From: Cephalotus follicularis
Lineage: Eukaryota > Streptophyta > Magnoliopsida > Oxalidales > Cephalotaceae
Direction of reading: 5' to 3'
DNA: 64,000 nucleotides
Assembly (NCBI GenBank): GCA_001972305.1
Contig: BDDD01002391.1
Location: forward strand, 75,525 to 139,524
Within the stretch, counting starts at the first letter, position 1. Each line of letters begins with the position of its first letter. The notes below the pieces were generated by a model, which searched no databases, was not told where the DNA came from, and saw only the letters and a list, made by a program, of their open reading frames with translations. The position numbers were made by a program, and so were the translations under genes. Shown here piece after piece: positions 1,994-63,400 of the stretch.

Positions 1994-3356
1994 TGAATAT
2001 ACTAAAAAGGGGGGGTGAATTGTAGTATTAACTAATTTTATTAAATTTTTTGGATTTAATCAAGTTAAGCAATGAACACAAATCAAATAGGCAATCAACA
2101 ATAAAATAAATAAAGTAATTATGGAAAAAAGGGTTAGAGAAATGCAAACACAATTTATAGTGGTTCGGCAAAGATCGTGCCTACGTCTACATTCCCAAGG
2201 TCCTCATTGAGTTTCCACTAGTGTTCCACCCGAACACAATCTCCGAATATCTTTCCAGGGGCTATTCGGTGCACCTTTACAATGTTTTGTGATTGACCTC
2301 AATCACAAGGGTTCACTCCCCTTTCTTCACTTCAGGGTTCACTCCACTAAGTGTGGATTACAAAAAATGATAAGTGTTTTGTGTAACCTCTCAAAGGTTT
2401 GGTATGGCTATTTTGATTACAAGAAATTTGATTGCTCTCAACAATAAAAATTGATCTTGAAAAGACTTCTTGATGATGATATGAAAGTGTTGGATTTTTT
2501 TTCTTGATTGTCACATGCTTGAATGTTCTTGTTCTTCTTTCTAATTTCTTGTGTTCTTCTTCTTTGTAGATGAATTTGATTTAATAGCAATAATGGTTGG
2601 ACCTTGGGAGTTGATTCTTTTGTCTTGAAAGTTGTTCCTTCAGCCTTGGAAGTTGTAACTTAAGTCTAGGTAGTTGTATTTATGTCTTGAGACTTGTTCC
2701 TTCAATAAATGAATCATTAAAAATGCTGTCAAAAATTTGTTCCCCGTGCGTAAAGCGTCGACGCTGTTCCTCAAAGTGTCGCCGCTTATGTGTCCGTTGG
2801 ATATTTGAATTTGAAAGTTCTGTTCCAAGCACTGATGGTCTTGAATTTGGAGTCGACGATTTCCCTCAAAGCGCTGACGGTTTGTGTTGACCGTCGCCGC
2901 TTTGAGCAATTATAATTACCCCAAAAGTCTCTGTTTTTAACCGTTGATGTTGAGTGCTTGGCCGTTGACTCCTTGATTCAAAGCGCCGATGCTTTCTTCT
3001 GAGCGTCGCTGCTTTGGTCGAACTTATTGGCTCCAAAAACTTTTGTTTTTAATCTCTGATATAAGGCCTTTGAGCGCTGGCGCCTTAGCTCAAAGCGCTG
3101 ACGCTTTGCTTAGAGAGTCGACGGTTTGAGAAATTTCTCTTTTGCTCACAATGCTTCAACTGTTGACGCATTTCACTTGGGCGTCGAAGGTCTCACAAAG
3201 CGCTGAAGGTTTCATTGTGACCGTTGATGCTTAGACCTGCATCTGCACTTTCCTGTTTTGATTTTGCAACATCTTATCTTAACTTGCACAAAAAGAAACT
3301 TTGTTAAATACAAATATGTTATCATCAAAACTCAGATTGAGACATAAATGTCAACA
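1994..3356 (-). repeat. Cop1 5' LTR, 1363 bp
   Basis: Minus-strand sequence begins TGTTGACATTTATG and ends TATTCA, next to the primer site. The segment 2740-3240 holds a cluster of degenerate GTCGAC-centred palindromes, for example AGCGTCGACGCT at 2754-2765, with variants such as CGCTGACGCTTT and GCGCCGATGC every 20-50 bp. Outside the cluster it resembles the solo LTR at 31988-32434, for example the shared TTTATAGTGGTTCGGCAAA block near 2152. Confidence 0.88.
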
Positions 3357-4108
3357 GTCAGTCTGAGAGGACAATTCAGACTCTTGAGGATATGCTCCGG
3401 GCATGTGTTATGGATTACGGTGGCAGTTAGGATTGACATCTGCCTTTAGTGGAGTTCTTTTATAATAACAGTTATCATGCAAGCATTGATATGGCACTGT
3501 TTGAAGCCCTTTATGGATGGAAATGCAGAACTCTAGTATGTTGGTTTGAGGTAGGCGAGCAGAGTCTCCTAGGGCCAAAGCTTGTGCAAGAAACATAAAA
3601 GAAGGCCAGGGTTATCAGGGAAAGGCTCCTAACGGCTCTGAGTTGGCAGAAGAGTTATGCTGATCATGATCGACGGGATCTTGAGTTCTCGATGAGTGAT
3701 CATGTTTTCCTTCAAGTCTCACTGACTAAAGGAATTATGAGGTTCGACAGGAAAGGGAAGTTAGCTCCACGATTTATAGGACCTTTTGAGATCCTTGAGA
3801 ATGTAGGTGCAGTTGCCTATAGACTTGCCTTACCTCCTAGCTTATCAGAGGTGCACAGTGTGTTTCATGTGTTGATGTCGAGGAAATATCACCCAAACTC
3901 TTCGCATGTATTGCAGTATGAACCATTGGATCTGAGGACGGATATGAGTTTTGAGGAGACACCTGTTCAGATTCTTGACCGTCGAGTCAAGCAGCTAAGG
4001 AACAAGGAAATTGCTTTGGTTAAGGTATTATGGTAGTATCACAAGCTCAAGCAAGCAACATGGGAGCGTGAGGATGACATGAGAGCTTTGTATCCTCATT
4101 TGTTTTGA
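3357..4108 (+). pseudogene. Gyp1 pol, C-terminal integrase and chromodomain-like tail
   Basis: Translation picks up at QSERTIQTLEDMLRAC, the integrase segment just after the DGQ motif of Ty3/gypsy pol, and continues through the NNSYHASI and FEALYG motifs and a GPFEIL/RLALPP C-terminal domain. It ends in a chromodomain-type tail (ATWEREDDM, YPHLF, stop at 4106-4108). In-frame stops occur after LVQET (near 3595) and after VKVLW (near 4035), and a frame change lies near 3450. The N-terminal part is cut off by Cop1 at 3356. The arrangement fits plant chromoviruses of the Tekay/Del group; the exact lineage is inference. Confidence 0.88.
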
Positions 4109-4364: not shown

Positions 4365-4964
4365 CGGTTCAGCTCTTTCTATTATCATTTTCATTTCTCG
4401 TTCAATTCGAGAGAGAGTGTGGGTTAGAGAGAGAAAGTGGGTAAAATCAAGCAAGGAAAGAGTCTTTGGGATCTTGACAGAGTGTAGAACAGGAAGAGAG
4501 AAGCAGAATAAGGATTCAAGCAACATATTCTCCGTTCTCAACCAAATTTAGGTAAGTTCTACATATGCTTTGATCTGTATCTTATGATGGATTTGCATGA
4601 TATTATGGTTATGGATAGTTGTATGCATGCTAGGTGGATAGACTAGGGTATCTGTTATGGCTTTAAACGGATTGAAATGGGAATCAAAGAGAGAATTGAG
4701 AGTTTAGGATCATAGGCCTAATTCCTTTTCTCTCTAGATTCATGGATTATGGGTACGTATCTGAAGGGTTAAAGTTGTTTTTAACTTACTATCGACCTTA
4801 GGGGCTTATAGCTACATTTGGATCAGATTTTAAATGGATTTAAATGGTTTTAAAATGGATTTTTTAGCTTGTGCGACTAACTGCCTGCTGTTGTCAAAGC
4901 GCAGACGCTTTGGACAAAGGCTTCGATGCTTTGAGCGGGATAACTGTCGACGTTTTAACGCAAA

Positions 4965-7290: not shown

Positions 7291-8042
7291 CCTCTCATGA
7301 TGCTTTTACCGGTATCTCTACGCCGCTCAGGCGACAGTGAGTCGACTCGCTGAGTCGACTCATTCAATTGATTCCGGCCGTTTCCGGCCGAATCACGCCG
7401 CACCAGTGGTTGAAATGGGTAGAGCTAGTCCTCTACACCAAAACCCAGGCCACCCGCGACGCTAACGACGCCAGGAATCGCCGGGAAATGGGCGCGACAG
7501 TGACGGTCGGGGAGAAGAAAAAAGAAGAAAAAGAGGAGAAGGGGGAGGAGGTTACCGTCGGTTGGAGGCCCTGGGTTGACCGGCGTGCTCTCCCGGTCCG
7601 GTAGCTGCCTCCGGCGTCCTCTCCCGACCTCTGCTCCGGTCTCTCTCCCAATCTCTCTCGTCCTCTCTCCCAGATGCAGGCGCTTTGTGCGCCTGCGTTC
7701 TATTGATGCACGGGCGCGTGATGCGCCCGTGTGTGCATGTCTCCCCCCTTTATTCTTGCTTCCTCCTTAGTATTTTCTGGTAAAATACTAAGGTACGGGT
7801 CCCGATTTTTCCGCAAATCGCGACATAAATCATCCAAACGACCACCAACATAATCGCAATAAAAATGCGAACATTCGGACTTTATTGTCGCGCATTAAAA
7901 ATAGATTTTATTAGCCGTCTTAGCAAACACGATTACGACTTAAATGCGTAATGCCTTTTTATTACTTCGGGCTTATCGATTTTATTACGATCGTACACGC
8001 ACCAATTTCATAATAATTATTTATGAAATTCGGGGCGTTACA
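7291..8042 (-). repeat. Gyp2a 5' LTR, proximal part only
   Basis: Homologous to the first part of the Gyp2b 3' LTR (30354-31100), including the CGACGGTAAC block near 7550 and paired GAGTCGACTC palindromes (7339-7348, 7351-7362). The GC-rich section 7380-7740 encodes no recognisable protein. The distal half with the primer site is deleted; the exact break near 7290 is approximate. Confidence 0.75.
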
Positions 8043-9366
8043 GCAAACCTGTTCACGCTTAAGGGAAAATGGACAAACTGTCGATGCTTTCGATTAAAGC
8101 GTCGATGCTCTGTGTGTTGTATAAATGGCTGACGCTTAGTGCATGCATCGACGCTTAAGGCATAGGGCCTTAACCGTTGATGCTTAGCATTATAGCGTCG
8201 ACGCTTATACGCTAAGCGTCGACGCCTAGCACGGAAGCGTTGATGCCTAGCACCATATTCTAGCCAAATCACACTGTTTTCAATGGTTTTCACCCCCCAA
8301 ATGGTTTTCTCTTCAAATGGATTACATAGGAAGCCTCCCTAAGGCCTTGTAGTATATGGAAATCCTCTTTTAACATCTTTAATCTTCAAATCAACTTTCA
8401 AAGTGATTCTTTAAAGAAAAGTTTCAACAAAAGCGTTTTATACAAATGGTTTTCAAGAATGGTTAGGATAGCTCAATTGGGACATCTGGACGCGGATATC
8501 CTAGTTGGACTTCCTCTCCATTGTTTTACAAACTCCGATAGGGACTAAGAAAATGGTTATGGAAATGGTTTTCGAAATGGTTTTGACGGATGGATCCTAT
8601 GTGATCCTTTATGGTCAGGTCCCTATGTTTTAAATGGAAATATGGTTATGGGCTATGGGTCTGGTACGACTATGATTGATGGATTGTTATGATCGAGACC
8701 TTATGGGATAACCCATTCATAATCTTCATTTCTGTCATGAAGAATTATGGATGTAGGCCATATATATTATGGATATGGATTCCGCCCTTTTTGGGTGACC
8801 TACGAGCATCACCGCATTGTGGAGTGACATGGTATGGTATGATATGGCATGGTGTTTAGCATAAAAATATGTTATTTTAAATGATCTATTTGTTATATTT
8901 TTATGCTTGGATCAGATTACCTGGGTTGTTTTTAATTGTTTTGCAGGTACAGCGAGAAATGAGCAAAGTGTAGCAAAATTGACTTCAACTGGCACAAATT
9001 GCAGTTGAAAGCGTCGACGTTTTCATTATAAGCGTCGACGCCTATTTTTAAAGTGCTAATGGTTCAATTTAAAGCGTCAACGCTTTGTGTTTCTATGCAC
9101 CATACCACCTTCGCTTCTCAGCTCTGCTTAGCGTTATTTTGTGGTCTTCTATACTTTTCTTCAAAACTCTCGCGATACTTTGTGGTTTGCACAGTTCAAC
9201 ACCTCATCTCTGGCCAGATAAGCATTTCAAGTCTGTCTCATACTTGTATTCCATGCTTTGCTATGCCATATTTATCATGCTTGGAAAACAATAGTTGGTG
9301 CTCGGCATCTTTGCAGGTTTGGTTAGTCTGGTCTGGTGCTCTGGTATTTACTAGTTGGCTCCTCTA

Positions 9367-9440
9367 CTCGGTATGCTTGGTCTGATTACTACTTCAAGGT
9401 CTGCTCGGCATGCTTGGTCTGACTACTACTTCAAGGTCTG
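9367..9440 (+). repeat. Two tandem 37-bp repeats in Ath1 LTR
   Basis: Units start at 9367 and 9404 (CTCGGTATGCTTGGTCTGAT versus CTCGGCATGCTTGGTCTGAC) and differ at two sites. Confidence 0.85.
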
Positions 9441-9891
9441 CTCGGTGAGTCCATTTCATGCTCTGTCCTCATTGCATGCTTGCATTCTCTGGTTTGGCAT
9501 TTCAAGTTGGTACTTCAAGCTCAGCTCGGCAAGTTTGATTTTTACTTATTAAGTGCCGACCTTCATTCAAACTATCGACGCTTAACAGCTTAAGCGTGGA
9601 ACGAAGTTGCATTCACATTATTAAAGCGTCAACGCTAAAGCAGTAAACCGCCGACGCTTTGCTCGATACCGTCAACGCTTAGCACTTGAAATCGTAAAAT
9701 TTAAGTAACGAAAAGCGCGTATCTCAGCTCTTTAAAGCGCCAATATTCAGAATCAACATGTCAATGCTTAGCACTTGATTCAGCTGACAAAAACAGCAAA
9801 TATGGAAAGTTTTAGATGGTTGTAATATTTTCCTTAATGGATTACATAGGTTAGATTATTTTGTTTTCCATTTTATGCATAATTGTAATAG

Positions 9892-9900
9892 TATAAAAGG
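9892..9900 (+). promoter_or_regulatory. TATA box in Ath1 LTR
   Basis: TATAAAAGG, a good plant TATA box, about 1.04 kb into the LTR and followed by a stretch resembling a transcribed leader. The matching site in Ath3 is TATATAAA at 48354. Confidence 0.6.
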
Positions 9901-10361: not shown

Positions 10362-10819
10362 CCGTTGGTTACCAAGGTTTGAGCAATCAAGTAAGTGAGT
10401 TATTCAATATAATTTATGGTGATTTTCTATTCCCTAAAACCGCTTTTATCTTGCTTATTTTATTTACTGTTATTTATTGATTTGTTAGTTAATAGATTGC
10501 ATGCTTTAATTTTTGTTAGCTTTCAATTCAGAAACATTAACCATTGACGCCTTGCTATAAAGCGTCAACGCTTTCAGTGCCTTTGTTTTTTCCGTAAATG
10601 CTTAGTGATAAAGCGTCAACGCTTTCAGTTCCTGTTTTAATAGTTTATTTCTTGCATGTTTAGGAGTAGTTTTCATAATGGAACCTCGATTGTTCATACT
10701 TCGCCTATGTTGAATAGATTAAAATTAATTTAGCTTGTTTCCTAGCGTTCGACCTGTTACTGTACAACTTTGCACTTACGGTATAAATTTAAAACATTCA
10801 AAACCGTGAACAAGTTTTT

Positions 10820-11916: not shown

Positions 11917-14376
11917 TGCTGGATTTGGGGTGTCCCTGTATGACACGAGATGGCTTCTTGGTTGTATATACACTCTTTATTTATACAATTCTGAATTCCT
12001 TTTATATTCTGTGTGTAACTTTATATATTGGCAAGGCTATGTGGGTCATCCCAACCAATCGAAAGGAACAGACGAATTATACGTAATTAACTGTATGCCA
12101 TAATAGCGTCCTCTCTCGTTCAAAGGGTTGGATCTCTTGCCGAGAGGGCTATGAGAATAAGATCCTTATTCCCTGTGACAAATGTTCCAAGTCATAGGTT
12201 CACTATCTTAAGGGCCATTGTTGAACTGTGAAGACTTGTCACGTGAAGCTTGCTCCCGGGTTAGCAGTGGAGATTGCTTATCTCGTACCCAATCGGGGTA
12301 ATCCCTAAAGCTGAATGTGAGGTGTATGCTAGAGTGCATGACACTGGACTAACCCACCAATAGGAAACCTATTTGAATAGTCTATACCCAATGTCAATAG
12401 GATTCCTATGGTCTCGGTAGTGTATAGTCTATGGTGACTAGTAGGTCTATAGCCTGCGTTGTCTCCTTTGACTTGAGCGACTGGTATGCATTGCGTGGTG
12501 ACTGCTTGACTTTGATCTCTGCCTTCCCCAGCACTAGCCAGGTGGTGGCAAAAGGGTTGTCTTTGGGTCTTGTGGGAGCTGCATTGAGATGCATGGGCGA
12601 GTGCGCAAGATGGGATTGTCACACCCAGGAAGAGGGTTACCAGCTCTATTTGTCTATGTACGTTGCAGACTTAAAAGTCCTGATCAGGCATAGGTGGACC
12701 AGAAACGAGAGGTTCCCATGGGAGGTCTACCGATAGTCTCAGTGCGATCATAGATTCATAGCTATCATAGCAATACTAGGGGTGACTTTCATCCAAACCC
12801 TAGGCCGTGATCAGAGCCATGCATGATGAGGGAAACATGACACATATGCCAATGACTTGATAAAGCGAATGGCTAGTCAGACCATGATTGATAGACGTGG
12901 TAATACACGGATCCGGGGGGTGACTGGCACTCACACCAGGGGTGCTCTGATAGTAGGTGTACTATTAGAGTGCTCGTACCAGTTGACGGGGTGCACTGGG
13001 AATTTATCATCATACCAGAGATCAACATGCTTTCGGGTCTTGCCTGACTTTGAACAGGTTGATATGTGGCGGGACACATATCATTTAGTGAAAGGACAAC
13101 ATCAGGAAAGATGTTGTTTGGCTAGCGAGTATTTCATTTGCATGGATTTAGGTTCATGCAATGCCACGATGAAATATTCCATGCAAAGGCTTATTTAGAA
13201 ATAGAAGAGAGTGTCTTCATTCTTTGTCTTGGGCGTCGATGCCAATATCTAGTTGGGCTGTTGGGTGTTGACGCGAAGGTATTGCATTAACACTGGGAAA
13301 AGCAGTAGCTTTATACGTCGACGACGAGAGGGAATCACGTCGACATCTAAACTAAAAAGTCTGCTAGGTGTTCACGCTATGGAGAGCATGGCGTTGACGT
13401 TGGAAAAACCAGTGGCTTTACACGTTGACGTGAAGAAAAATGACACTATACACTTGTCTCATATTATCTCTGGCGTTGACGCCATTTTGTAATGTGAGAC
13501 GCGTACATGTCGACGCTTTGTGTACACGTTGATTCCAAGAGGAGAGAGAAAGTCAACACTATAAATAGTTTGAGAGAAACTTGCTGAACACACTTTGACT
13601 CTTTCTTTCTCTCTCTTCCATCCTGTGCGATCTCTTCTGCCTACTCTCGTACGCATCGATGCCTATCACCTACGCGTTGACACCTGGGTCGCATGGAGCG
13701 TTAAAGCAGCCATTTCCAAGCCTCCTTTCACCACTCAAACGTCGTAATAGGTGGAGATAATTTGCACACTCCTTCTTATCTTTACCTAGAGTGATTTAGA
13801 CTAGGTTTAAACACTTGGCCTTTATCCTACTCATACGTGGCTTGAGGATTTGCTTGGAGAAGCTTGGGGTTTTGGAGGACAAAGTGTAGAAGGAGCTATC
13901 TAGAAGGAAGGAGACTTCACCTCAGGTAAGAATCCGTTTCTTCCCCCTCTTGTGGTGCCATGGTAGTGGGTGTTGATGTGGGCGTGTGAAACCCTTACCA
14001 AAACCTCCATGGTTCACTTATGTAGCTTTGTGTTTCATCTCTTATGGTTAGGGATGATGTGGGTGAGTGTTGATTGGGCTATGGCTAGGGTTTTGTGTGT
14101 TATACCTTATGAGCCATTGTTAGTGTCCAACTCTAGGGTTTATGGCAACCCTAGCTTCATCAACCCGTTGTGCCCAATGCTTGGGTTTATAGTTTCGGTT
14201 TAATTGGATGTTGATTAGATGTTCCTTGGAATTTATTAGGACCTTTTGGACTTAGGCTAAGGTATCATATTGCTTGAGGATTAACCAATTGAGAGATTTT
14301 TAAAGTTAATCGGCCCTTAACTCCCAAGTTCGAATTGTAAAGTCTTCCACTGCGCTCAGGCCGAGCGTTCCTAACA
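11917..14376 (+). repeat. Cop2a 5' LTR (2460 bp)
   Basis: Starts TGCTGGATTTGGGG and ends CTAACA, followed by the primer site. Its first 420 bp match the 3' LTR at 35768. The 13205-13700 part holds CGTCGACG-type motifs (near 13317, 13508), and a TATA box lies at 13560. The middle (12320-13050) matches Cop2b and Cop2c LTRs, while the distal half does not. No gene is seen. Confidence 0.9.
13560..13567 (+). promoter_or_regulatory. TATA box in Cop2a LTR
   Basis: TATAAATA followed by a leader-like stretch and a candidate splice donor (CAGGTAAG near 13923). It is a plausible LTR promoter; use is inferred. Confidence 0.55.
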
Positions 14377-18448: not shown

Positions 18449-19106
18449 GGGGGGTCCCGCTGCCCGGACAGCGGGCAGGGGTTCGTGGGGCAGCACCCCC
18501 AGAAGAAAATTTTAAATTGGCTAAGTGATGAGAAGGGAAACTGTCTAAAGCGCCGACAGTTCCACTTAAAGCGTCGACGCTTTGGTAGTAACGGTAGACG
18601 CTTAAACCCCTTCTATCTGCGCTTTAAACCAACACAAGGGAAAATTGGACAAAGCCCTCAAACCTTCGACACTTAGAGGTAAAGAGTCGAGGCTTTGGTC
18701 AACGGTCGATGCCCTAAATGTAAAAGTCGATGCTTCGAGATCAAGTATTGAGGATTGACCTGGAGGAGACTTAAAGCGGCGACGCTTTGTAGGAAAGCGT
18801 CAGCGCTTTAGTCGGGATAGAGGTGAAAAACTCAGGTAAAGGCTGTAACCGTCGACGCGTAGAGGTAAAGAGTCGATGCTTTGCCCTGTGTCAGGTGCAT
18901 AATTCTACCTTTTTATCCCGTTTCGGAGGATTTAAATGAATTGTAGGACACGTGTCAAGCAAGGGATGGATGAATTATGATATTTTGCTAATATAGGACA
19001 GGTGGCATCAGCTGGATTGATTGAATTCAATCACATGGAGGCAAGCTCGCATGGGTGAAGTCATGGATGACACCATGCAAGCTTAGCCTCCAAAGTTTGC
19101 CTCTCC

Positions 19107-26452: not shown

Positions 26453-29117
26453 TGTCATACCCCGTATTTCCATTTACGTCAAGACAAACATATGTGGTGA
26501 TATCAGAATAAGCATAAATAATATTCCAGCAACAATTCATAAATAAATTTGCTGAAGCATTCGATAAGCCGGAATATAAATACAAGCCGTCCGCACGCAT
26601 CCCATACTACGTGGAGACATAATCCAACAATTATCCTTACATAAGGAAAATACAATAGTACACGGAGTGTGATCCGTTCGATACAATACATCATAAGGAA
26701 AATAACAACCTTAATCAAAAGTAGAAGCTCTCCCAGCTTCAGCAGCAAACTCCAAAGTCTTCGCTTAATCTGAAATTGTAGGGGTTAGCCGTTGTCCTCA
26801 CTTGGCTAAGTAGGAAGATAATGCATGCTAAGGAATATATGAATGCAACATGTATGACAGTTTATATCAAAATAACATTTAATGTGCCAATATATAAGCA
26901 ATCATGCCAAGTGGCCATAAACAGTTCATATGCATGAATACCGCACAAGGGTACAATCAATTCATCCATCAGTTGGGTGTCACATGCCGCTATCTCCTAG
27001 CTCCGACTGTGCACTACCTAACTATCTCCTGCGCTCTGAGGATGATAGAACAGGTAACATTTACTACCGGCGTTGGTGGGTAGTTTTAACAAATAAGATC
27101 TGCAATGCAGATTAGTTTAGGAGATCTCCTGGCCAACTCCTGGCACCCAGGATCCCTACCGTAGTCGGTGGCCACAACCATCACTCGACCACCGGCAACA
27201 GGCACAATCAATACAAGCATTCAATAATAATATTACATATATCAGCAATATGCAATATAAAAGTGGTTTTCTTTAGAAACATATTACAAGTCATTTATCG
27301 TACATCTCTTCGGAGGAAAACGATATCAATTCAATAATGGTCCTCGCTTTGGAGAACAAAACAGATGGTATCTCTCTTAGGAGAAAATCAATAATTTCTT
27401 TTAAACAATAGGTTTTCATTTGAAAATGATAGTTGATATCATAATTTGGGTACATAGCCCATAGTTGGTTCGATCATTGCAATATAAGTAGTAATGGTAT
27501 TGAATAGCACCAAACAGTATATACTAATGTACGGTAGCATATACAGAAACAATATCACAAATCAGTAGCAATGCAAGGATTCACAAGAATAGCATTACAT
27601 AGTCAATTCATTTGCAACTCTCGCAAGGAGTGCGTACATTGTTTAGTTTTGGAATGTAATTGTATATGAGGCCATGATTTTTAGTCATCCAAATGGAGGC
27701 CAGGTTCATTACATTCAAAATTGAGGCCTTAACAGGACTTATATCAGTAATTTTACCTAGGACAGTCGGCTGCCTTCAAGAATAGCCAGCTGCCTTAGTT
27801 GAGTAGTCGACTGCTTTGCCTTAGCAGTTGACTGGATAGGGTTGAGCAGTCGACTGCCATGAAGAACAGTCGACTGCTTCTGCCCAGAAAACGCAGGCAG
27901 TAGCAGTTTGTATATTTCACAATCCCAATTTAATACAATCAAAGCATGAAACAATGCAAAAAGATAACATACATGATATGCATGATCATATCTTCCATAA
28001 CATATCATTACCCCTACCTTAAATTGCTATCCCAATATCAATTGGGGTTGATCTTTCTCTTTGTGTTTTCCAAGCTTTTCACCAACAATCTTTCAATTCC
28101 AGCAGAATCAATATATGCATGTTTGTTTATGAACACATGCATCAGTACCAGTAAGTTTCAGTAACTCTAACAGTGGTTAATCATTAGTCCATCAAGTCTT
28201 AACTTCCTTTTGAATTCTATGTCAAGTATCATTCAATCTTGGATTCATTGATCTTAAGTGTGTTGACAGAAGATGCATATTTACATTTAGAACCAGTAAG
28301 CATATCCTGACCTTAACATCAACTATAATCCAATCTAGAGGTTATAGTCACCATTTCCACTTGATCCATTTACCAATTTCCATTTCAATTCTAGAATCTG
28401 TTATCTTTAATTATGTTAACATAAGGTATTCAACATTCTCCTAGTTATTTTATCATCACATGGCAACGAGCTCGAGTTTAGAAACTTACCAAGAGTCCAA
28501 AGCTTCCAAGTCTCCTTCTTGAGCTCTCTACAATTCCTCAATGCAAGCTTAACAAGCCCTCTCTTCACTCAGTGTTTTTCCAACACTCTTACACAGTTCT
28601 AACAGCTTATATAAGTCTCAAAGACTTTTGAATTCGTCAGATTCCTTTTCTAAGTCACATGCACTCCTTTTTCTCTATTCTTTCCATCACATGCATCCCT
28701 CTCCTCACCTTTCTCTCATTACTTTTCAATTTGTAGGTTGTAGGTCCGCAGAGAACATGCAAGCATGCACTTTGCATGTTATGGCAGGTGGTGACATGCA
28801 TGTGCCACTCCTACACACCTGTCATTCTTGTCTCTGCACATGCCAGAAGTCTGTCCTGTACCAATCTAGCCGACTGTCTTCACTGGGCAGTCAACTGCCC
28901 ACAACAAGCATCAGACAGTCGACTGTTTCCCTGTGACAGTCGACTGTTTGAGCTGGTTTAGGGTTTCTTAAGCTTGATACTTCACCAATCGCACATCCCT
29001 TCATCCCAAGCAATTACCAATCACAATTTTATAATAATTGGAGAATAATTTCAAATGAGTGCACATTTTATTAATTCAATATTACAATGTACACGAATTG
29101 AATTTGCGGTTATTACA
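26453..29117 (-). mobile_element. Gyp4a: solo gypsy-type LTR, 2665 bp
   Basis: Minus orientation: TGTAATAACCGCAAATTC at 29117, GGGTATGACA at 26453. The flanks TAGGT (26448-26452) and CAGGT (29118-29122) are a 5-bp duplication with one change, and Gyp2a shows the empty site. There is no primer site, polypurine tract or coding sequence. It aligns along its length with the Gyp4b and Gyp4c LTRs. Two clusters of CAGTCGACTG-type palindromes (27767-27885 and 28862-28947, with ACAGTCGACTGT at 28936-28947). A solo LTR normally results from recombination between the two LTRs of one element. Confidence 0.88.
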
Positions 29118-30353: not shown

Positions 30354-33300
30354 TGTAACGCCCCGAATTTCATAAATAATTATTATGAAATTGGTGCGTG
30401 TACAGTCGTGATAAAACCGATAGATGCCCGGAGTAATAAAAAGGCATGACGCATTTAAGCCGTAATTATGTTGGCCAAAACAGCTAATAAAGCCTATTTT
30501 TAATGTGCGATAGTAAAGCCCAGTGTCGGCGTTATTATTACGATTATTTTGGTTGCACTTTGGATAATTTATGTCGCGATTCACGGAAAAAATGGGACCT
30601 GGACCTTAATATTTGCTGGTAAAATACCATAAAGAAAATGGGGGAAGCAATTAAGAAAGAAAAAAGAAAGAGACGCAAGAGCATAGCGCGCCCATGCAAA
30701 GAAGAGAGACAGACGCGCGAGAGAGGCAGAGGGAGAGACAGTGGGAGAGAAAGGGAGAGAGGGTGCCGGAGACTACGTCGGAGCCAGCCACCTGACCGGG
30801 AGAGCACGGTGGTCAGCCCAGGACCTCCAGCCGACGGTAACTTCTCCTTTCCTCTTCTCTTTTCCTTCTTTTTCTCTTCTCTTTCCCCGACGTTTTTGCC
30901 TTTGTCGTGCGTTCCACCACCGGTTAGCATCGTGAGTGGATGGGGTTTTCGTCTATAAGGCCCGCTTTGTCCATTTTGATCACCGTTGAGGCATGGTTCG
31001 ACCGGAATCGGCCGGGATGTGTCGACTGAGTCGACTCAGTGAGTCAACTCACTGTCGTCTGAGACCACGCATTCGGCACTGAGTCTCGGCGAGTCTTGGA
31101 CATTGGTGGGTAGAAATGGTCAATGCGTGGCATTTTTGGGTGGTGGCCGAAGTGGTGGAAGTTGGGCGAGTTGACTCAGTGAGTCACAACTCGCAGCTGG
31201 CCGTGACACGGAGTTCGGTGCCTATTTACGGCAAATCTGGAGCAGTTTTGAGTAGATTGTTCATTGTGGAACCCATTTACGGGTGTTGCACAAGCCGGGT
31301 GAGTCGGTCAGATTCCTACCGGCGCTCGTGTAACGGCTGTGTTGGTTTATGTGTGTTGAGTGTAATGAAATATGTTGTATGTGCAGTGTGTGAGTGGCAA
31401 TTGGAGTTGGCAGTGAGGAATTGATCAATTGGCGAGAACCGGGTTCGGTTCAACGGTAATTGGGAAAGGTTCAACAATTGAACCTGCAGCTCGACTGTGC
31501 TGTTGCTGCTGCGATTCCTAACTTGGAATCAGAGGTGGGGGTAATAGTAGGGGATTTATACTTGCTTATTTGAGTTCAAGAATGATGTTTATCATTGATG
31601 AATTGCATGGACTTTGTGGATTGAATTGCATGCACGTTTTGGGATGATTTTTCCTTGGTGTGATTGGTGTTATGGTTGCTATGAGTAGCTAACCTGCCTT
31701 GCATATTGTGATTGAAATGGTTGTGGATTGGATTGCATGTGTAATTATGCATGTTGATTTCAAATGTTGAAACGTGTTGAAGAAGATGTTTCTGGTCTTC
31801 TTTAACCGTCGACGCTTGAAGGAAAAGCGTCGATGCTATGGACTGTTACGTGTAGGAATGTACACTGACTTCGCGATAAAGGTCGACGCTTAAGGAAAGC
31901 GTCGACGTCCTGATTCGAATGTTCGTGTGAATGGACGCGTGGATGTTGACGCCTGAGGTTCCTACCTCAAAGCGTCGACACCAAAGTTGTTGGAATGTAT
32001 GGCAACCTTTAAACTAACAACTATGTATGCGGAAAATACAAATTAAGCAATGAACATAAATAATCACACAAGAACAATTAAATAAAGAGTTAAGGGATAG
32101 AAGGAGTGCAAACAAATTTATAGTGGTTCGGCAAATCCGTGCCTACGTCCACTTTCTCAAGACCTCTTGAGTTTCCACTAGAATCCCCTAGCAACCTTTG
32201 ATTTTCGGCTTATTGTTCTCTGCCTTAGAAGGTAGACGCTTTGCACAAAGAGTAGACGCTTTGTACCTCAAAGAGCAGACGCTTTGATCAAAGAGTCGAC
32301 GCTTTGCCCTGTTTTTGCACTTCTTAAATTTCCTTATATCTTTTCTTGCACAGAAAGATTCTTGCACACAAAGTAGCAAAGTTAAATGCAAATTTGTAAT
32401 CATTAAAACTTAGGATTGAGACTAAAAGTCAACAAAAGTAATGGGATCCTTACCTTGAAGCGTCGACGTCAAGGACAATTGTTGACACTTAGGTTACTGG
32501 TTAAAGCACCAACGCTTAAGGGATATAAGCATTGACGCCTAGGGTTAAGCGGCGACGCTTAAGTGACTAATATGAATGATTTGGTGCCTAGAGGTTAGGT
32601 GTCGATGCCGAAAGGGTCAGGTTGCATTTTGAGCATATGTTTGTTTGCATATTACTGTGGATTGGTCGAGTTTTCCTCGCCTTGTGCCGGTTAGCGTCGA
32701 TGTGGGTATGAATTGAACTGTGAACTGAATTGTGAATTGAAATATGATAGAATTTTAAAAGTTTTTTATCATTTTAGAAGTGCATACATTATTTTATAAC
32801 AAATCATTATTTTACACGAAAATGTATATTTGTTAAATGTATATTTTCGAAGTATTGAAACGTGATTTCAAAGTTTGATTACATTTTGAGTAAATGTATT
32901 ATTTCAAGTATTTTATAACTTATGATTTACTTGGAAAGGATTTATTTTTGGATTGATTAAGCTTTCCTAGCACCATGGGATGGTTAGCTGTGTGCTTTCC
33001 TAGCTCGGGGCCGGTTAGCATCGATGATTGAATTGTTTGATTGATTGTGATTGTTACGTTGTTAGTGCGGTGACGGAGGTTGTCACTTACGCTAATGACA
33101 GGTTGTGCCTTGGGGCCAGGAGTAGGCAAGGACACCACATCGGATGGTCTTTCTCCGCTATGTGCCGATTGACATCCACACTATGATCTATCCTCTGCCT
33201 ATGTGCTGGTTAGACTCATCTTTTTATTGAACTTTCCTCCGCCATGTGCTGGTTAGTGTCAATTATTGATCGAGCTTTCCTCCGCCTATGGGCCGGTTAG

Positions 33301-36190: not shown

Positions 36191-37480
36191 TGTCAGACCC
36201 CGTTTTTCACGAACAACATTTAAGTGGTGGCAGTTAACATAATATCCGGCTTATTCATTTTCATGATAAATTTGAAACTTTTCAAATAGTTATAACAATT
36301 ACTGAAGCATTCGATAAATAAGCCGAATTAAACCGTAACACGTGTCCCATACCATGTGTTACCAATGACATAAATAAACCATTGTCAACTTCCCTCAAAC
36401 GGAGCGTGAATTAAAGCATTCAATACGGTATCTGATCATACACAGATATCCATCAAATACATTATCCCAAAATTACAATTACCCAGATGCATAATTCATT
36501 ACAATAATCGAAAATCCATTCGTTTACAAAAACATAGTACGATAATAGTTTAGCAATCCCCAACAGGGATTACAACTCCACCAACCAACATTATTACAAT
36601 TTATACTTCTCCTCGCTTGACCACATTGGTCCTACTGCATCAATCTGAAATAGTAGGGGGTTAGTCTTTGTCCTCACTCGGCTAAGTAGAGAAGTTATTA
36701 ATGCAGTTCGGGGTTAATGATAATGAAGTCATGTATGAATGCACAATGATGCAGTACATAGTCTATAACAGTACATGTACATATATTTATATGTATATTT
36801 ATCAGTATAACCAATCATGTCCTCAAGGGGACCACTCAATCACATTTAGTACAAACAATGCCCACGTTACTTGTACGGTGGCAGTAACAACAGTCAGGAC
36901 ACGGTAAACGATACTAGCACGGCGGCTAAGTACAAACAGTACCCTGCTAATGGTAACAATAGAAAACGATACCCAGCACTGTGGCTAAGTAACAACAATA
37001 CCCCGCTAGTGGCAACGGTAACAATCACATTCAACAGTCAACTCAAGTGATGCATAATTATAAACATTTGAAACAGTAATATCGATGTATAAGAAATCTC
37101 TTAAACAGTTCACAATATTTGTGGATTACTTCCCCAGTCATTTAAAAATATATGTATTTTCGTACAAAATAATGATTTGTCTAAAATCATGTATAAACTT
37201 CTAAAATGATAAAACACTTTAGAAAACAATCACAATTCGTTTCACAATTCAGTTAACAGTACAATATATAATGCAAACATATGCTCAGAATGCATCTAAG
37301 ATCGTTGGCGTCGCGCCTATGTTTACCACCTTTTCTAAGGTACGTTTATTCTCTATAACAGTCGGCTATTCTGGGCGAGTAATAGATGAACAGTGTACCT
37401 CCTACCATTTTTGGGCAGACTAACGCATGCACAGTTGACTGTTTTCCATTAACAGTCGGCTGTGAACTTCAAACAGTTGC
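36191..37480 (-). mobile_element. Gyp2c: partial Gyp2-type LTR, minus strand
   Basis: Starts TGTCAGACCCCG on the plus strand (the LTR end in minus orientation) and carries the GTCCTCACTCGGCTAAGTAG landmark near 36670. CAGTCGGCTG-type palindromes lie at 37360-37465. The sequence changes to Ath2 integrase at about 37480 without an LTR start, so it is truncated. No gene is seen. The exact break is uncertain by 10-20 bp. Confidence 0.75.
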
Positions 37481-47573: not shown

Positions 47574-49066
47574 TGTTTAGCATAAAAATGTGTTGTTTTT
47601 AATGATTATTTGTGATATTTTTATGCTTGGAATAGACTACTTTGGTTGTGTTTTAATGATTTTCAGGTACAAGTGCTAAATGACCAAAGTGCAAGAATAC
47701 TACCCAAAAGTGTGCAAAATTGGAGTTTAAAGTGTAAAGATTGAAGAAATGCAAAATTCTGCAGAAAACAGACAAAGAAGTCGACTCCTTTCAAGAAGAA
47801 GTCGATGTCTTTTCTGGGTTTACAAAATGAAGTCGACGTCTTTCAAAAAGAAGTCGATGTCTTTTCTGGAAGTGTAAAATGACCAAAGTGCAAGAATACT
47901 ACCCAAAAGTGTGCAAATTGGAGCTTAAAAGAGTAAAGATTGAAGAATGGACAAATTCGGCAGAAAAAGAGCCAAACGCGTTGATGTTTATGATACATCT
48001 AGATGTCTTTGCTGGGTTTTCACAAACACGTCGACGTCTTCTGTTAGAAGTCGACGTCTTTTCTGGGCAATACAAAGAGCTATGAACAAGGGATCGATGT
48101 CTTTCATCATAGGGATTGACGTCTTTGTACAAATTCAACCTGTAACTTTTGGACCAGAAGGGATCGTCGTCTTTCACCTTAAGAGTCAACGTCTTTCACA
48201 CGCATCTCCGCAAGACGCGACTTTTACAAGAAGACATCGACGCCTTTCAAAAAGAAGTCGGAGTCTTCCTCTGCAGCAGAAATAGAAAGATTAGATTTTT
48301 GCCTGATTTTGTAACTAGGATTGCTTTATTTCCGTTTTTGATCCATTTTGTAGTATATAAACAATGTTATTTCAGCCAAATAGTGCAGAGAGTGTGTGGA
48401 AGTAGCCACCTCCCTCCTTCTTTTAGTTTTCATTATGTTTTGTAACTAGTTTTTAGGGTTTTGGGTTAGGACAAAGCCTAGATTGTTATTGTTTCAATTC
48501 CATCAATAAAAATCCTTAAATATTTTATTTGTTCTTTAATATTTTTGCCTTCGCACACACTTTGTCTGCCTGATTAAAATCCACAAACATCTTGTCGGTG
48601 AAGCTGAAAGTTGGTGAATAAATGGTGCTTAAATCAATGGAGTCTACTCATACGATTTGTCGCAACGAACACACTTCGTATAGACCTAGCATGACTACTC
48701 ATACGTCTTGTCTGATTAAAATCCACACTTCGTATAGATCTAGCATGACTACTCACACGTCTTGTCATCACCACCGCACTCCGTATCGACCTAGCTGCCG
48801 TTGTTTATCAAGGTATGATCGTTCAATTAAATGAAATTGTTCAATACAATCTATGGTGAGTTTCTATACTCTAAACCGCTTTTTAATTATATCTTTTCTT
48901 AGTTTATATTTATTAGTTTTTAATAGTTTATCTCAAAATTGGTATACTTCGCCTAGGTTGGATAGATTACAACTAGTTTACGTTTCCCTGTGTTCGACCC
49001 GTTACTGCATGATACGTGCACTTGCGGCTATAAATTTTAAAACATCATATTCTTTTTACGTGAACA
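47574..49066 (+). repeat. Ath3 3' LTR, 1493 bp
   Basis: TGTTTAGC start, GTGAACA end. It contains a cluster of GAAGTCGACGTCTTTC-type motifs (47775-48265; ACGTCGACGT at 48028-48037), TATATAAA at 48354, the 51-bp array (48640-48795) and a partial internal duplication of about 200 bp (AAGTG(C/T)TAAATGACCAAAG-like at 47671 and 47870). Confidence 0.92.
48354..48361 (+). promoter_or_regulatory. TATA box in Ath3 3' LTR
   Basis: TATATAAA at the position matching TATAAAAGG in Ath1, followed by leader-like sequence. Confidence 0.55.
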
Positions 49067-49252: not shown

Positions 49253-49983
49253 TGTTCACGTGTTTTGAATGTTTGAAATTTATACTGCAAGTGCACAGTC
49301 GTGTAGTAACGGATCGAACACTAGGAAATCAAGTTAAATTAATTTTAATCTATTCAACCTAAGCGCAGTATGCAAAATCGAGGTTTACTATCAAAAACTA
49401 CTCCTAAATATGAAAAATAAACTAATTAAATAAAACAGAGGAGATTGGCGTCTACGCTTTGTCAAGGCGTCGACGTGAATATCTATTGAATTGAAATTAA
49501 CAGGATTTGAAGCATGCAAATTACTAAACTATCAAAACAGGGAATAAACTAAACAAAATATAGAAGAGAAAAGCGGTCTTAGGGTATAGAAACTCACCAT
49601 AGATTATATTGAACAATTCACTTACTTGAACGATCAAACCTTGATAACCAAAGCCAGCTAGGTCGATACGGAGTGCGACTATGATGTCAAATCGTATGAG
49701 TAGTCATCCTAGGTCTATACGGAGTACGGCAGCAACGGCAAATCATATGAGTAGACATGCTAGGTCTATACAGAGTGTGTTCGGTGTGACAAATCGTATG
49801 AGTGGACTCCATTGATCGCGTTGAAAACGATTTATTCACCAACGTTCTTATTCACCGACAAGATGTTTGTGGATTTTCATCAGACAGACAAAGTGTGTGT
49901 GAAGGCAAAAAATTGAAGAACAAATAAAAACTTTAAGGATTTTTATTTGTGGAATTGAAACTATACAATCTAGGCTTTGCTCT
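49253..49983 (-). repeat. Ath2 5' LTR, distal part
   Basis: Plus-strand TGTTCACG is the LTR end. It contains the inverted 51-bp array (about 49640-49815) and a GCGTCGACG motif near 49467. It is interrupted at 49984 by Gyp4b; its start is not in the window. Confidence 0.85.
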
Positions 49984-50819
49984 TGTAATGACCGCAATTT
50001 CATTTTGTTGTATGTTGTATAATTCATTAATAAAATTATACATTGATATGAGATTAATTGCTAATTGTCCTTTTAATTAGCTTATTGTTGTGGATATTGA
50101 AGGAAGATAAGTCTAAGTGTTGAATGTAAAGGAATCAGGGTACTTGCGCATCAATGCCATGCATTGACGTCGACGCCAAGTAACATTGAAACGCGCTTAA
50201 GGCTTTTACCTTAAGGCGTTGATGCCATGCGAGGACGTTAACGTCCATTGCTGGTGAACTGAAAGGGATAGGCGTTAACGCGACTAGAAGAGCTTGTTAA
50301 CGCAAAGGTGTTGGATTAGGGTGTCCTTGCAAGCCACGAGAAGGCTGCAGACATATGTTGTTGACATATGACATGTCACACCCCGCCGTTCGATTCCGTT
50401 TGGCACAAGCATATATGGTGATATCATAAATAAATATAATCCAGCATTCTCATTCAACAATTCAAATAATATAAGCGAAAGCATTCATATCTGAATTATA
50501 AAATAAAAGTCATCCGCACGCAGCCCATACTACGTGCAGGCACATTCCAACAATATCCATATACATAAGGAAGTACAACAACATCACGGGGTATGAACCG
50601 TTCATTACAATACAGTACATCATAAAAATAACAACCTTAAGATAGAAAAGCAACTCTCCAAAGCTCCAACAGCACCTCCCGTACGTCTTCGCTTAATCTG
50701 AAATTTTAGGGGTTAGCCGTTGTCCTCACTTGGCTAAGTAGGAAGATAATGCATGCTAAGGAATATATGAATGCAACATGTATGACATTTTATATTAAAA
50801 TAACATTTAAGTATTATTA

Positions 50820-51114: not shown

Positions 51115-51116
51115 TG

Positions 51117-57411: not shown

Positions 57412-60400
57412 TTTTAACAATTCATTGATCGTACATCTCATAGGAGGAAAACGATATCAATACAATAGTGGTTCCCAATTGGAGAACAAAACAGTAGGTA
57501 CCTCTCATAGGAGGAGTAGTAAATCATTGGCAATAAGTTTTCATTTTGAAACCATTAGTAAAACCCATATCCGTGCTTATAGCACTTAGTTTGGTTTAAT
57601 CATTGAAGATAAGTGATAATAGTGTTGAAGAACACTTAGACAGTATATACGAATTATGACAGTAGTATATACAGCAAACAGTGAAGCACAATAGCAATTC
57701 AAGACATTCAATGAGGTAATTAGCATACCATAGTCATTCATGTGCAACTCACACAAGGGTTGCATACTTGTTTAGTTTCTGAAATGTAATTGTATATAAG
57801 GACAGGATTGATTGTTCTAATCATCCATATGGAGGCCAAGTTAATTACATTAAAATTAAGGCCAAAACAGGACCTATATCAGAACTTTATCCCAGGATAG
57901 TCGGTTGTTCTCAAGAACAGTCGGCTGTTTCGATTGAGTAGTCGACTGTTTTCTCTTAACATCGACTAGATAGATTGAGTAGTCGACTGCCATGAAGAAT
58001 AGTTGACTGCTTTTCCCAGAAAAAGCAGGCAGTAGCAGGTTATGTATTTTAATGTCTAATTACCAACTTAAACAACACATGCAATCAACCAGAAATTATC
58101 CATACATGATATGCATAATATATCTTCCAAAAACATGTCATTACCCCTACCTCAATGGATATCCCGAGATCAATTGGGATTGATCTCTCTCTTTGAGTTT
58201 CCAAGCCTTTTCACCAACCAATCCTCCAAAATCCAGTAATTATTTATCTTTGCATGTTACAGAAGATGTATATATGTATAGTCAATATACACATACCTAG
58301 AGACAAATATAACAACAACTATAATCGAATTACAGGCTTATCAACAATTCCTTAACTCCACTTTCACATTTAACCACATCTATTACAATTTCTATCTCCA
58401 AATTGCAGCTTACTACTGGTGATCATGTTTAATCAGTGGTTATAGGATGAATGTGAGACTGTTTAACTATAACCTTAATACTAACAGAGCTTGGAGCTTA
58501 CCAGGAAATCCAAGCTTCAAGTCCTCCTTACACTCTAATCCTTCAACATGCATCCACTTGCCAACAGCTACTGTCCAGAGTTTCCTTCTCTCTCAAGTGT
58601 TTTCAACATTCATACTGTAATCTAACAGCTGATATACAGGCTTAAGAGCTTTAGAATTCGCCAGATTGTCATTAACTCAGCCTTCTCTTTTCTCTTTCTC
58701 ACATGATCACTCCTCTCTCATTTTTCTATCTTTTTCTCACTACTCTGCTGTGATTGCAGGTTGCAGGTCTGCAGAGTACATGCAAGGCACTCCTTTTGCA
58801 TGTGAGGGCAGCTGCTGGCTTCGCATAACACCTGTCCAACATGCCTTGCCTCTACCCTGTCTCATATGCATGCGCAGACACATGTTCTGTACCATTCCAG
58901 TCGACTGTCTTTAACAGGCAATCGACTGTCACACCACGCATCAGCCAGTCGACTGTTCCCCTGTGGCAGTCGGCTGTCGATGGCTGCTTTTGGTTATTTT
59001 AGGTCCATTTGTTCAATTAAATTAACAACCACAATCCGTATAATAATTGGATAATTAATCTCAATCAAAATGTATATTTTATTTAAAATTGGAGCAATGT
59101 ACATTAATTGAAATTTCGGTTATTACATGACATACTCTTGAATCGTACATTCTTAGTTCTATTCATGTTTGATTGTGCATTTTAAATAAAAGATTGGCAT
59201 CTTGCTATATGTATTATCCCATACCGTCTCTATGGATCAGTTGATCACCATGTCAGCAGAATACACATATAGTGCCCTGTCCGTAAAGGGTTGGATCTCG
59301 TGCCTGAGAGGTTATGAGAATGAGATCCTTACTCCCTTGTGACAGAAGTTCCAAGTCATATGTTCACTTTCTTAGGGCAATTGATGAACCGCAAAGACTT
59401 GCCGTGTTATGCTTGCTTCGAATGGTAAATGAGGATGGATCATCTCATTGCCATTTGGGTTTTTCCCCAAAGCTGATGCGGGGTGCGTGCAGAGGCATGA
59501 CATTGAGCCGACCCACCATAGGTTATCTATTCGGAGAGTGAACACCTCTGTCAATAGAGTTGCTATTGTCGCGGTAATGCTTTGTCAAAGGTGACTAGTA
59601 GATCACATGTGATTTACGTTGTATCGTTAGACTTGAGCGGCTGGCATATGATGTGTAGTAACTGCTTGGCTTTGATATCCGACTTCCCCAGCACTAGCCA
59701 CGTGCTGGCAAAAAGGTTGTCTTTGGGCCTTGTGGGAGCTGCATTGAGATGTGTGGACGGGTGCGCAAGATGGGATCGTCGCACCCGTGTTGAGGGTTAT
59801 AGGCTCTATAACATCTGTGACCGTTGAAGACTTAAAGTCCTGGCCAGGCACTGGGAGATTGCGAACGAGAGGTTTCCAAGGATATCTCCTATAGTCTTAG
59901 TGCGTTCATAGAATAATAGTTATCATGGTTTTACCTAGGGGTGACATTTAACCAAACCCTAGTCCGCGGTCGGAGCCGAGATGACGAAGGATACGCGGCA
60001 CACAAACCGATGACAGTGATAAAGTACCAGGGAACCGGTTAACGAATGATAGACGTGGTACTTTTTGGTCCGCGGATTCGGGGGTGATTATAGATCACAC
60101 CGGGACTATTAGCTGCATAGTCATACCAGAACTTCGGGATATTCTGAGAAATTTATCATCGTACCGGAAATCCACCGGGCTTTCGGGTCCTGCCTGATTA
60201 TTGGAAAAGTGACGCATGCTGCACACATGCTCGCTTGGTGGTAAATCTAGTTTTTAACTAGTATATATTATTTTGACATTAGTGGTTTGTTTTTCGTTCT
60301 ACTAATAGTCATCTTGATATATAAGAGATTTGAAGCCGGAGCATGATTTAATTTTATTAAATCAAATTTAAAGAGAGAGTCTTTAATTTACAAAGGGGAG

Positions 60401-63400
60401 AAACATTTTAATTTCGAAAGAGACTTTAAAATTATAAAGGAGAAAAGAATAAAAGAAAAAGAGCGAGAGAGACTTAATATTTATTAAGTCAAAATGCATT
60501 TTAAAAATTTTTTTTTTTTAAAAATGTAATCTCTCTCACACTCTCTCCCATTCTCTCCCGTGGGTTTTGGGCGAGGTAGATGCGCGCTACGCGTGCGCAC
60601 AGTGCAGGGGCGCTGTTCGGCCGAGGAAGATGGCCGATTTGGTGACGTACGTCCTCCTTGGTATGCCTCCTTCCCTCCGTCTCTCCCGTTTTTCCCTCTT
60701 TCTCCTTGATTCTCTCTGGCAGCAGAATTGCGTTTCTACCACCGCTGCTTGCTCTGGCGTCTCTCTTCCACCACTGTTGGTCTCAGTGGGTGGAGCCTTC
60801 ATGGCTCTACCTATTCCGACCTTAGACTAGGTGTTACCGGCAATGCTTGTCCAGGTTTTTGCGCACCAAGTCAACTCCATCAACTTGGCATTTTGTGAGT
60901 CATGGCTCGACATTTTGGCCCGAGTCACGATGAGTTTTTGGCATGGGTGTGTCAGGCTGAAGGTGTGGATCCGTTTGGTGGCTTGGTGGCCGCTAACGAC
61001 GAACGACGAGTCAACCCCGTGACTCGCTGCTGGTTGTTTTCGTCATTCAAGGTTAAGTCTTGTCGAGTCTCGGCCACCAGCGTGTTCGTCGGGGTGTTGG
61101 CGTCCACTTATGTTAAGGCCGGTCAATGGCGAGTTGATCGAGACTCACTGAGTCTGAACTTAGTGAGTCGCCACCTCTGGCCGCTGTGTTTCAGCGCGGT
61201 TCTAAGCAAGTATCTTGTAGTTTAGGGTTGAGCAATTTTTTCAAGTCCGTTGTTGTCAATAACAGACCGAATGTGGACTGTCCAAAAACCGGCGGTGTTA
61301 CCGGTGACCGACATTTGTTACTGCAAGCGTGTAGCGGCAAAGTGGTGGAGCCTCCAACGTTGGTATGATTGCTTCACTCTTACTTTTATTGTTACCGACA
61401 TGTGTTCGGTTTATCTTTATGTGCATGCTTGATTTTGTTTTGGTTCGATTGTTAATTTAATGGAGAACCCAGGCTTTTGTATTTGGTACTAAGATGTAAG
61501 TGTGGACCATGACTTTTAGTCTTGGTGTTTTTGAAAAATTAAAATTATACACACTTGCGTCCTAGGAACAAATCGACCGGGAACCCTTGCCAGGTTTCCA
61601 ACACAAGGCACGAAGTCAATGCGTCGACGCCCTGCATTGACGTTGACGCCTAAAGTGCCGGCAAGATATGTCAAAGAAATGAAAGAAGATGCGTGAGGGA
61701 CAAAAGTACGAGTTTTCCACTTCCCTATGATCTGCACTGATGAAAATAAAGGTGAGAAGTGATTGATGGAGGTCTTGCCACCTACCACAAGGGCAGATAG
61801 GGAGGAGTGACTCCATTAAAGTTCCTCTCCTCTTCTCCGAACCCCACACCAGTGAAAGTGAGAGTGAGTCAGAGCATTGTTGTTCTGCCACTTTAAGCCA
61901 GAAAAAGAAGCTTGAGGACCAGATCTTGGAATTCGGAAGTGGAGTGATCGAACAGAATCTTGAAGCTTGGAGAAGCTGAGGATAGGATTAGAGATTAAAG
62001 AAGTGGACTTTCGATTCCTAACTTAGAATCAAAGGTAGGTAGTAGGGTTCATGACATGTTTATGAAAATATGACATGTATATTGTGTTATGGTGAATGCG
62101 AGTGAATGCATGTTGATTCTAAGTGTTAAATCCCTGCTTGATTGAAATGATTGTCAACTGATTGTACTTCTGCATTCGATTCACATCGACGCCTAAGCGA
62201 TTGACGTTAACGCCTTAACTGGAATAGGCAGTATTTTGTACGGATAGGTTGGTTTTCGTCAATGCCTAAGTGGTTGACGTTAACGCATAGCTGGAATTAG
62301 TTGATGTTTCGTACGGTTAGGATGATTTACATCGACGCCTAGGTATACATTGACGCATAAAACCTACTAGTTTTTCCAGGACATCGACGCCTAAAAGGAC
62401 GACGTTGACGCTTAAGGTTCCTACCTTAATGCGTCGATGCCAATGTTGAACGTTGACACCTAAGGTCTTTCCTTAATGCGTTAACACACATTTTGAATAT
62501 TGACGCGTAAGTGACGTTAACGCCTAGGACACATGTTGACTCATAAGTGCTCGTTGATGCCTAAGATATACGTCGATGCCAATAGTGATTGTTTACATTT
62601 TGAGCATATGTTTGCTTGCATTTTTCTGGTTTGATTCCTAGAACCACCAATGGTTGTATTGATTGAGTGATTGCATATTATTGAAGTGATATACTGTTAT
62701 ATATATTATATATATCTATCAAGTGATTTCAAGTGCTCTACTATTGGTGCTGCACGCATAACGAAATGGTTTTCTATTACTGCTTTTAAAGGAAAACTAA
62801 ATGTATTGTTTTGTTTCCTCAAAAGGGAAACCTAGTGAAGTGTTTTACTGTTCCTCCAAGTGAGGCACAATCAGTGAAGTGTTTTATTGTTTCCTCAAAA
62901 GAGATTTTAAGTGAAAGTGTTTACCGTTTTCTCAAAGAAAACTAGTGTTATTTTACATATTATATATATGTAATTTCAGTGATTGACTGTGATTGAAGTG
63001 TTTCGGATAGTCATGTGGCATGGAGTATGCCGCTGATTACGGAGGTGAGCGGATGTGCCAGGAGTTGGCTCCAGCTTATTCACCAAATTTATCTGCATTG
63101 CAGACAGTGAGTGTTATATTGCCTGCCAAGTGTCGGCAATAAGTGTTTACCTAGTCTATCACATCAGAGTGCATTGTGATAGTCAGGTGGTGTATCGGTT
63201 GAGCTAGGAGGTACAACTAGATGACACCCACCCAATGTAGTGATTGATTGTACCCTTGAGCGGTATTCTTGAAAGTGATTGATTGCAGCCATTTGGCATG
63301 ATTGCTTATATATATTCATCATATATATACTTAGTGTTTAATGATATAATTGCCATGCATTATTACATTCATATATTCATTGTCATGTATATTTTCCTAC

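Follow-up and report, generated by a model that had tools for sequence, protein, structure and literature searches.

Helically phased palindrome arrays of two classes in Copia and gypsy LTRs of Cephalotus follicularis and their association with a PF20167 third open reading frame

The window, a stretch of 64,000 nucleotides of the Cephalotus follicularis genome, contains arrays of palindromes centred on GTCGAC (Table 1). Every cluster listed in the earlier note contains such sites, and the array edges match the coordinates given there within about 75 bases; the cluster at 37360-37465 shrank to two close sites (37432 and 37453). The five palindromes named there as perfect examples are all present in the sequence. 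The one at 31025-31040 is a different palindrome, ACTGAGTCGACTCAGT, repeated at intervals of 9-13 bp, and lies outside the 21-bp system described below. The gypsy element at 9-10.8 kb has a PF03732-type gag relative at 11153-11814 and a mutated Asp-type primer-binding site (PBS) near 10818, and the 'Gyp4a' LTR and that of the gypsy element at genome locus L026 share 67% identity.

Table 1. Palindrome arrays and adjoining features in the window; labels in quotation marks follow the earlier note.
Feature	Position	Strand	Remarks
Copia gag beside 2603-3235 array	68-1885	minus	66% identical to L029 gag
iMet-type PBS of same Copia element as 2603-3235 array	1980	minus	
CGT array, 13 sites	2603..3235	.	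LTR of minus-strand Sirevirus-type Copia
CGT array, 3 sites	4894..4958	.	
CGT array, 7 sites	8073..8251	.	gaps 21,46,29,21,21,21
CGT array, 3 sites	9006..9088	.	gypsy LTR labelled Athila in earlier note
CGT array, 5 sites, CGTCAACG frequent	9567..9772	.	LTR of 9006-9088 array
CGT array, 3 sites	10536..10627	.	LTR of 9006-9088 array; inverted-copy counterpart 49443-49481
CGT array, 9 sites	13228..13688	.	LTR ending before iMet-type PBS 14379; labelled Copia in earlier note
CGT array, 9 sites	18545..18884	.	contains 16-bp perfect palindrome 18568-18583
CAG array (CAGTCGACTG), 5 sites	27763..27876	.	gypsy LTR 'Gyp4a'
CAG array, 3 sites	28888..28946	.	second array of 'Gyp4a' LTR
CGT arrays, 14 sites	31801..32613	.	
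CAG pair, 21 bp apart	37432..37462	.	
CGT array, 11 sites	47773..48248	.	LTR labelled Athila in earlier note
CGT pair, 19 bp apart	49443..49481	.	inverted LTR copy of 9-10.8 kb family
CGT array, 4 sites	50143..50286	.	
CAG array	57918..57989	.	second gypsy LTR copy, 'Gyp4c'
CAG array, 4 sites	58898..58976	.	second array of 'Gyp4c' LTR
CGT arrays, 12 sites	61616..62584	.	

With up to two mismatches to NNCGTCGACGNN, 217 matches were found in the window where 96 were expected, and no shuffle exceeded 122. Trained on the window, a symmetric profile (consensus about AAAGCGTCGACGCTTT) gave 116 sites there, against 8.5 in 30 shuffles (maximum 16). Runs of four profile sites within 200 bp numbered 58 in the window and zero in the shuffles. 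Outside the training set the profile found 157 sites, compared to 10.7 in shuffles, in loci L009-L028, which are 20 segments of 10 kb with no part in the training; L009 is all N, leaving 19 readable loci with 157,426 readable bases. The short, overlapping loci L001-L008 were left out of all counts. Dinucleotide frequencies predict 6.3 copies of GTCGAC itself in the window, and 44 are present, the top ratio among the 64 six-base palindromes. In the 1.577-Gb assembly the exact core CGTCGACG has 223,473 copies and the reversed control GCAGCTGC has 8,375; the three CpGs in the core should lower its frequency, yet it lies far above the control. The absence of clusters from coding regions was borne out: with coding sequence defined by the tblastn matches of 12 element proteins, one site occurred in 52,290 coding bases and 312 in 197,611 bases elsewhere, an 82-fold lower density.

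The spacing had been described as irregular, at 15-60 bp, and this description has to be given up. The window has 78 gaps of at most 130 bp; 36 of them measured 19-22 bp and none was below 19. For window and genome loci together, 116 of 229 such neighbour gaps were 19-22 bp, with 72 at exactly 21 and one below 19; this count is without L030 and L032 (second LTRs), which were kept in the array-family, class-neighbour, coding and paired-change counts. Gaps of 26-130 bp follow a period of 10.4 bp with a phase near 0, equalled by none of 2000 jittered sets. The periodicity is present in the window alone (p 0.011) and in the genome loci alone (p 0.0005). To allow for kinship among the copies, the arrays were reduced to one per family: grouping 43 arrays by similarity gave 26 families with no detectable likeness between them. 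For this reduced set (n = 26) the period was 10.3 bp and the phase 0.06 (p 0.006), and a 21-bp gap was present in 20 of the families. The mutual dissimilarity of the 26 families also disposes of a few recently duplicated LTRs as the sole source of the clusters. Several short arrays with a 20-22 bp unit were found by TRF. Sites placed along one face of the helix are characteristic of proteins that bind next to each other.

The palindromes fall into two classes, CGT-type GCGTCGACGC and CAG-type CAGTCGACTG, which have the 21-bp spacing in common. The classes hardly mix: among 123 neighbours within 150 bp, 65 pairs were CGT-CGT, 55 were CAG-CAG and 3 were mixed. In the window the CAG class is found in the 'Gyp4a' and 'Gyp4c' LTRs and in the pair at 37432, and all remaining clusters, 'Gyp4b' included, are of the CGT class.

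That Copia and gypsy alike carry the arrays holds. The claim that nearly every LTR does so is overstated, as the readable loci L018, L021 and L023 show zero sites, L018 despite two primer-binding sites adjoining gag genes. CGT arrays occur in the LTRs of Sirevirus-type Copia elements (window 2603-3235, L013, L025 and L029), in LTRs that the earlier note had put forward as Athila (9006-10627 and 47773-48248, with which gag relatives and Asp-type PBS agree), and in the gypsy element L031/L032 (gag PF03732, RT PF00078, LTRs 96.9% identical). L029 is a young Copia element with Copia gag, integrase and RVT_2 domains; its aligned LTR parts are 99.5-99.7% identical and its 3' LTR is incomplete. Judged by Sirevirus features given in the available text of PMC2829016, L029 has a Copia gag-pol, an iMet-type PBS with one mismatch in 12 and, by eye, a G-rich PPT adjoining the 3' LTR and a polyC stretch near the LTR end. 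An assignment of the array at 6813-7081 of L015 to Athila was rejected because a Sirevirus-type U5 comes after the array.

Array class switches between related LTRs. L031 (CGT) and L026 (CAG) have homologous, collinear gypsy LTRs in which four blocks align at 61-81%, and each LTR has two arrays at corresponding positions and of opposite class. The array blocks themselves are barely above shuffles (z 1.7 and 2.7), and the intervening stretch reaches z 12.7. The Sireviruses L014 and L025 have U5, PBS and gag in common at 81%, and their upstream arrays are of different class. Since the class differs between otherwise homologous LTRs, the arrays are replaced as modules.

Some arrays lie outside LTRs, immediately upstream of an ORF of the PF20167 family ('Transposase_32'). 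In L029 this ORF is the third, after gag and pol (E 8.5e-23), and directly before it stand four palindromes resembling those of the L029 LTR. The related element L014 has a PF20167 ORF only 22% identical, and CAG sites both in its LTR and before this ORF. A first look through the genome for the family turned up 13,073 candidates; 150 of these were then scored. Among PF20167 loci with upstream DNA, 17 of 18 had at least two sites upstream and 16 of 18 had their own, the sites at L035 being part of a nested gypsy LTR. The class was CGT in 6 of 6 P0001-type loci, and GCGTCAACGC or ACGTTGACGC was present in 10 of 12 third-clade loci. At least 101 L014-type loci exist; the 14 examined all had CAG sites, in most cases four with gaps of 21, 19 and 21 bp, and none had CGT sites. 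As background, 12.5% of 4,870 random 500-bp windows contained at least two sites of either class. Sites were conserved above their flanks in two of the three clades, an excess absent in the remaining one. Because PF20167 copies are kin, the independent evidence for a link between class and clade amounts to three clades, over which palindrome class goes with PF20167 clade as an association. In a tree of 20 PF20167 domains only three branches are strongly supported and L014 forms a long row; the tree backs the P0001-type group and nothing further. In one third-clade copy, gag and pol matches were absent in the 7 kb upstream of the ORF. L035 had seemed to combine a third-clade ORF with CAG sites, but this reading was dropped, as the array lies in the nested LTR, which matches L025:3228-3386 at 94% identity. 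The equal ORF length (408 aa) in L029 and L031 is a coincidence.

Structural comparison of the predicted PF20167 model gave VANC21 (9lnj) as the one match found, which points to a possible VANC21-like fold. Foldseek searches against the PDB and viral models had best E-values of 0.96 and 0.27. A separate model from the P0001-clade alignment was useless (pLDDT 39). A sequence profile run against PDB chains gave 13 matches up to E 10, the best at 0.15, mostly to coiled coils and none to VANC. DUF1985 had zero matches up to E 10 in 25 P0001-clade members and zero matches across the genome, where the controls gave no match either.

We propose that the arrays are operator-like sites for a retrotransposon-encoded PF20167 protein that would act in a VANC-like manner, and we give this reading a probability of about 0.6. 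A dimer of the protein, which the third ORF encodes in Sirevirus-type Copia elements, would bind each palindrome. The sites stand whole helical turns apart (21 bp as two turns, then about 3, 5 and 7), and such spacing would align the dimers along a single face of the DNA for cooperative binding. As like palindromes occur in the LTR and just before the ORF, the protein would control both the element and its own gene. The predicted, possibly VANC21-like fold and the location of arrays in non-coding DNA make VANC-like action the most likely mode: the protein may recognize its own family and either counter silencing or activate transcription, simple activation being equally allowed. From site and gene together we infer binding, and only at a further remove anti-silencing. 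Where a gypsy LTR has sites and its element lacks the gene, the protein would be used in trans. This would have to apply to L031/L032, where no PF20167 ORF was found with a family profile run over L010-L032 and the window, which matched only L029 and L014. Palindrome class and protein clade would change together, as lock and key. The occurrence of the same palindromes in unrelated families and in front of this ORF suggests that retrotransposons share, or steal, one another's switch.

The main rival is that the sites bind host transcription factors, the LTR families having converged on host regulators, e.g. of stress, which would govern the third ORF as well. Host factor sites can stand in arrays in plant LTRs, the arrays studied here are common to both superfamilies, and Sirevirus motifs matched mainly stress sites in PLACE according to the available text of PMC2829016. 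With host factors, however, neither classes that track the clade of an element-encoded protein nor a joint class switch at both positions of one LTR would be expected, and we consider this explanation unlikely. No plant factor is known to us that has a 16-bp site of this kind.

The earlier note had proposed that the families share a system of cis-elements, for instance a common activator site, an RNA hairpin or dimerisation signal, or a spreading micro-repeat. A function of the palindromes in the transcript, in dimerisation or as source or decoy of siRNA, appears highly improbable. Palindrome-rich LTR regions of maize Sireviruses are small-RNA hotspots (Bousios 2016, as cited in PMC10760457 and PMC5311732), and small RNAs may arise as a consequence of the palindromes. 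Paired changes exceed expectation at two outer arm positions, but at core arm positions 6-9 there is no excess (2, 11, 1 and 3 observed against 4.1, 11.8, 1.8 and 4.6 expected), and it is hard to see what DNA-helix phasing at gaps of 30-95 bp would mean in RNA. Growth of a neutral 21-bp minisatellite by slippage, with recombination copying it between LTRs, is likewise highly improbable as an account of the arrays. The short TRF arrays speak for it, VANC targets likewise grow via tandem repeat formation (PMC5735166, available text), and a spreading micro-repeat may well describe how arrays grow. It leaves unexplained the phasing in 26 mutually dissimilar array families and the coupling of class to clade, and class purity, the depletion in coding sequence and the conservation of sites above flanks in two clades also argue against it. 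The shared cis-element with a common activator fits well with the helical phasing, the purity of the classes and the coupling to a protein-coding gene, and gains further from that conservation; in the form we prefer, the activator would be the PF20167 protein.

In the available text of PMC5735166 and PMC10398659, VANC proteins bind arrayed short non-coding motifs, where they cause loss of methylation. The motifs differ from one VANC to another, and the unrelated element AT9TSD1 is affected by VANC6 too. The VANC/VANDAL system of Arabidopsis thus resembles the proposed one in its element-encoded protein, its dense short motifs in non-coding parts and its protein-specific motifs; a possible further likeness is VANC21 as the one structural match found for the PF20167 prediction. 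Dense short motifs are indeed present in non-coding DNA of the encoding element here, and different proteins go with different motifs as an association across three clades. The systems differ in their carriers, which are Mutator-like DNA transposons there and LTR retrotransposons here (L029 with Copia gag, integrase and RVT_2), and in the motif, here a palindrome with helical spacing; the 25 P0001-clade members scanned also gave no DUF1985 match.

The closest precedent for the sites is the Sirevirus RM box of 2010, described in the available text of PMC2829016 as palindromic, in high copy in LTRs, with extra copies upstream of a 3' ENV-like ORF. The boxes were reported as Sirevirus-specific, with a CGG-CCG core in all but one and no common binder; the Vitis RM CGGTCGACCG contains GTCGAC. 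Palindromes in the L029 LTR and upstream of its 3' ORF agree with this pattern. The core here is GTCGAC rather than CGG-CCG, gypsy elements (L031/L032) also carry it, and helical phasing and classes following the ORF3 clade are added. A TATA box, by one simple consensus and with few Sirevirus LTRs, lay shortly downstream of arrays in 3 of 18 cases and in 2 of 18 controls. In sunflower, an Athila element has a 3' additional ORF with PF20167 and predicted nuclear localisation; this is the same Pfam family, and the available text proposes no target motif (PMC11728184). In maize, structured regions of Helitrons are reported to have the Sirevirus palindrome as their most frequent motif too (PMC10760457, available text).

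In the literature surveyed, mostly outside subscription journals, we found neither palindrome arrays joined to PF20167 nor a palindrome common to Copia and gypsy LTRs. As far as we have seen, the helical phasing, the sharing between superfamilies, the two classes, their association with ORF clade, the class switch and the predicted, possibly VANC-like fold are apparently new. According to PMC7264820 (available text), it is controversial or unknown what the additional ('envelope-like') ORFs of plant LTR retrotransposons do, and in 2026 it was called open whether LTR-retrotransposon ORF proteins shape element methylation (PMC12844716, available text). The PF20167 family offers a testable partner with a predicted, possibly VANC-like fold, putative sites and two specificities to swap. 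If the proposal is true, the Sirevirus palindromes would be explained, trans-parasitism would exist between retrotransposon superfamilies, and sequence-specific tools against silencing would become available. More tentatively, at somewhat less than even odds, plant LTR retrotransposons may own a VANC-like recognition system, in which the 'envelope-like' third ORF would be a sequence-specific nuclear regulator, the palindrome classes would serve as address codes that gene-less Copia and gypsy elements steal and switch, and the RM boxes of cereals and grape would belong to the same system.

The palindromes of the young Sirevirus-type Copia element L029 make up 16% of its LTR length and hold three of the four substitutions that separate its two LTR copies, a bias in line with the decay of methylated CpG. 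At L017, the palindrome array is perhaps a leader array and not an LTR array, since it is placed between an LTR-like end, recognized as a direct repeat of 95.8% identity, and a Copia gag.

The proposed palindrome binder, the PF20167 (Transposase_32) ORF, yielded 13,073 first-look candidates in the 1.58-Gb genome, of which 150 were scored. Its third-clade ORFs at L051, L052 and L054 belong to one element family; for one copy, 7 kb of upstream sequence contains no recognizable gag or pol, and the downstream stretches of two copies share 95% identity.

A third palindrome type, TGAGTCGACTCA, recurs in the window at intervals of 9-13 bp in two stretches that sit in inverted copies of one sequence (75% identity between copies), and it is outside the 21-bp palindrome system. 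The window also carries a 30-bp tandem repeat of about six copies.

Positions of the repeats and arrays
Feature	Sequence	Coordinates
Palindrome array	L017	464-859
Direct repeat (LTR-like end)	L017	1-333 / 7492-7824
LTR substitutions in palindromes	L029	1848-2819
Third palindrome type	window	7340-7366; 31020-31052
Tandem repeat	window	25817-26003
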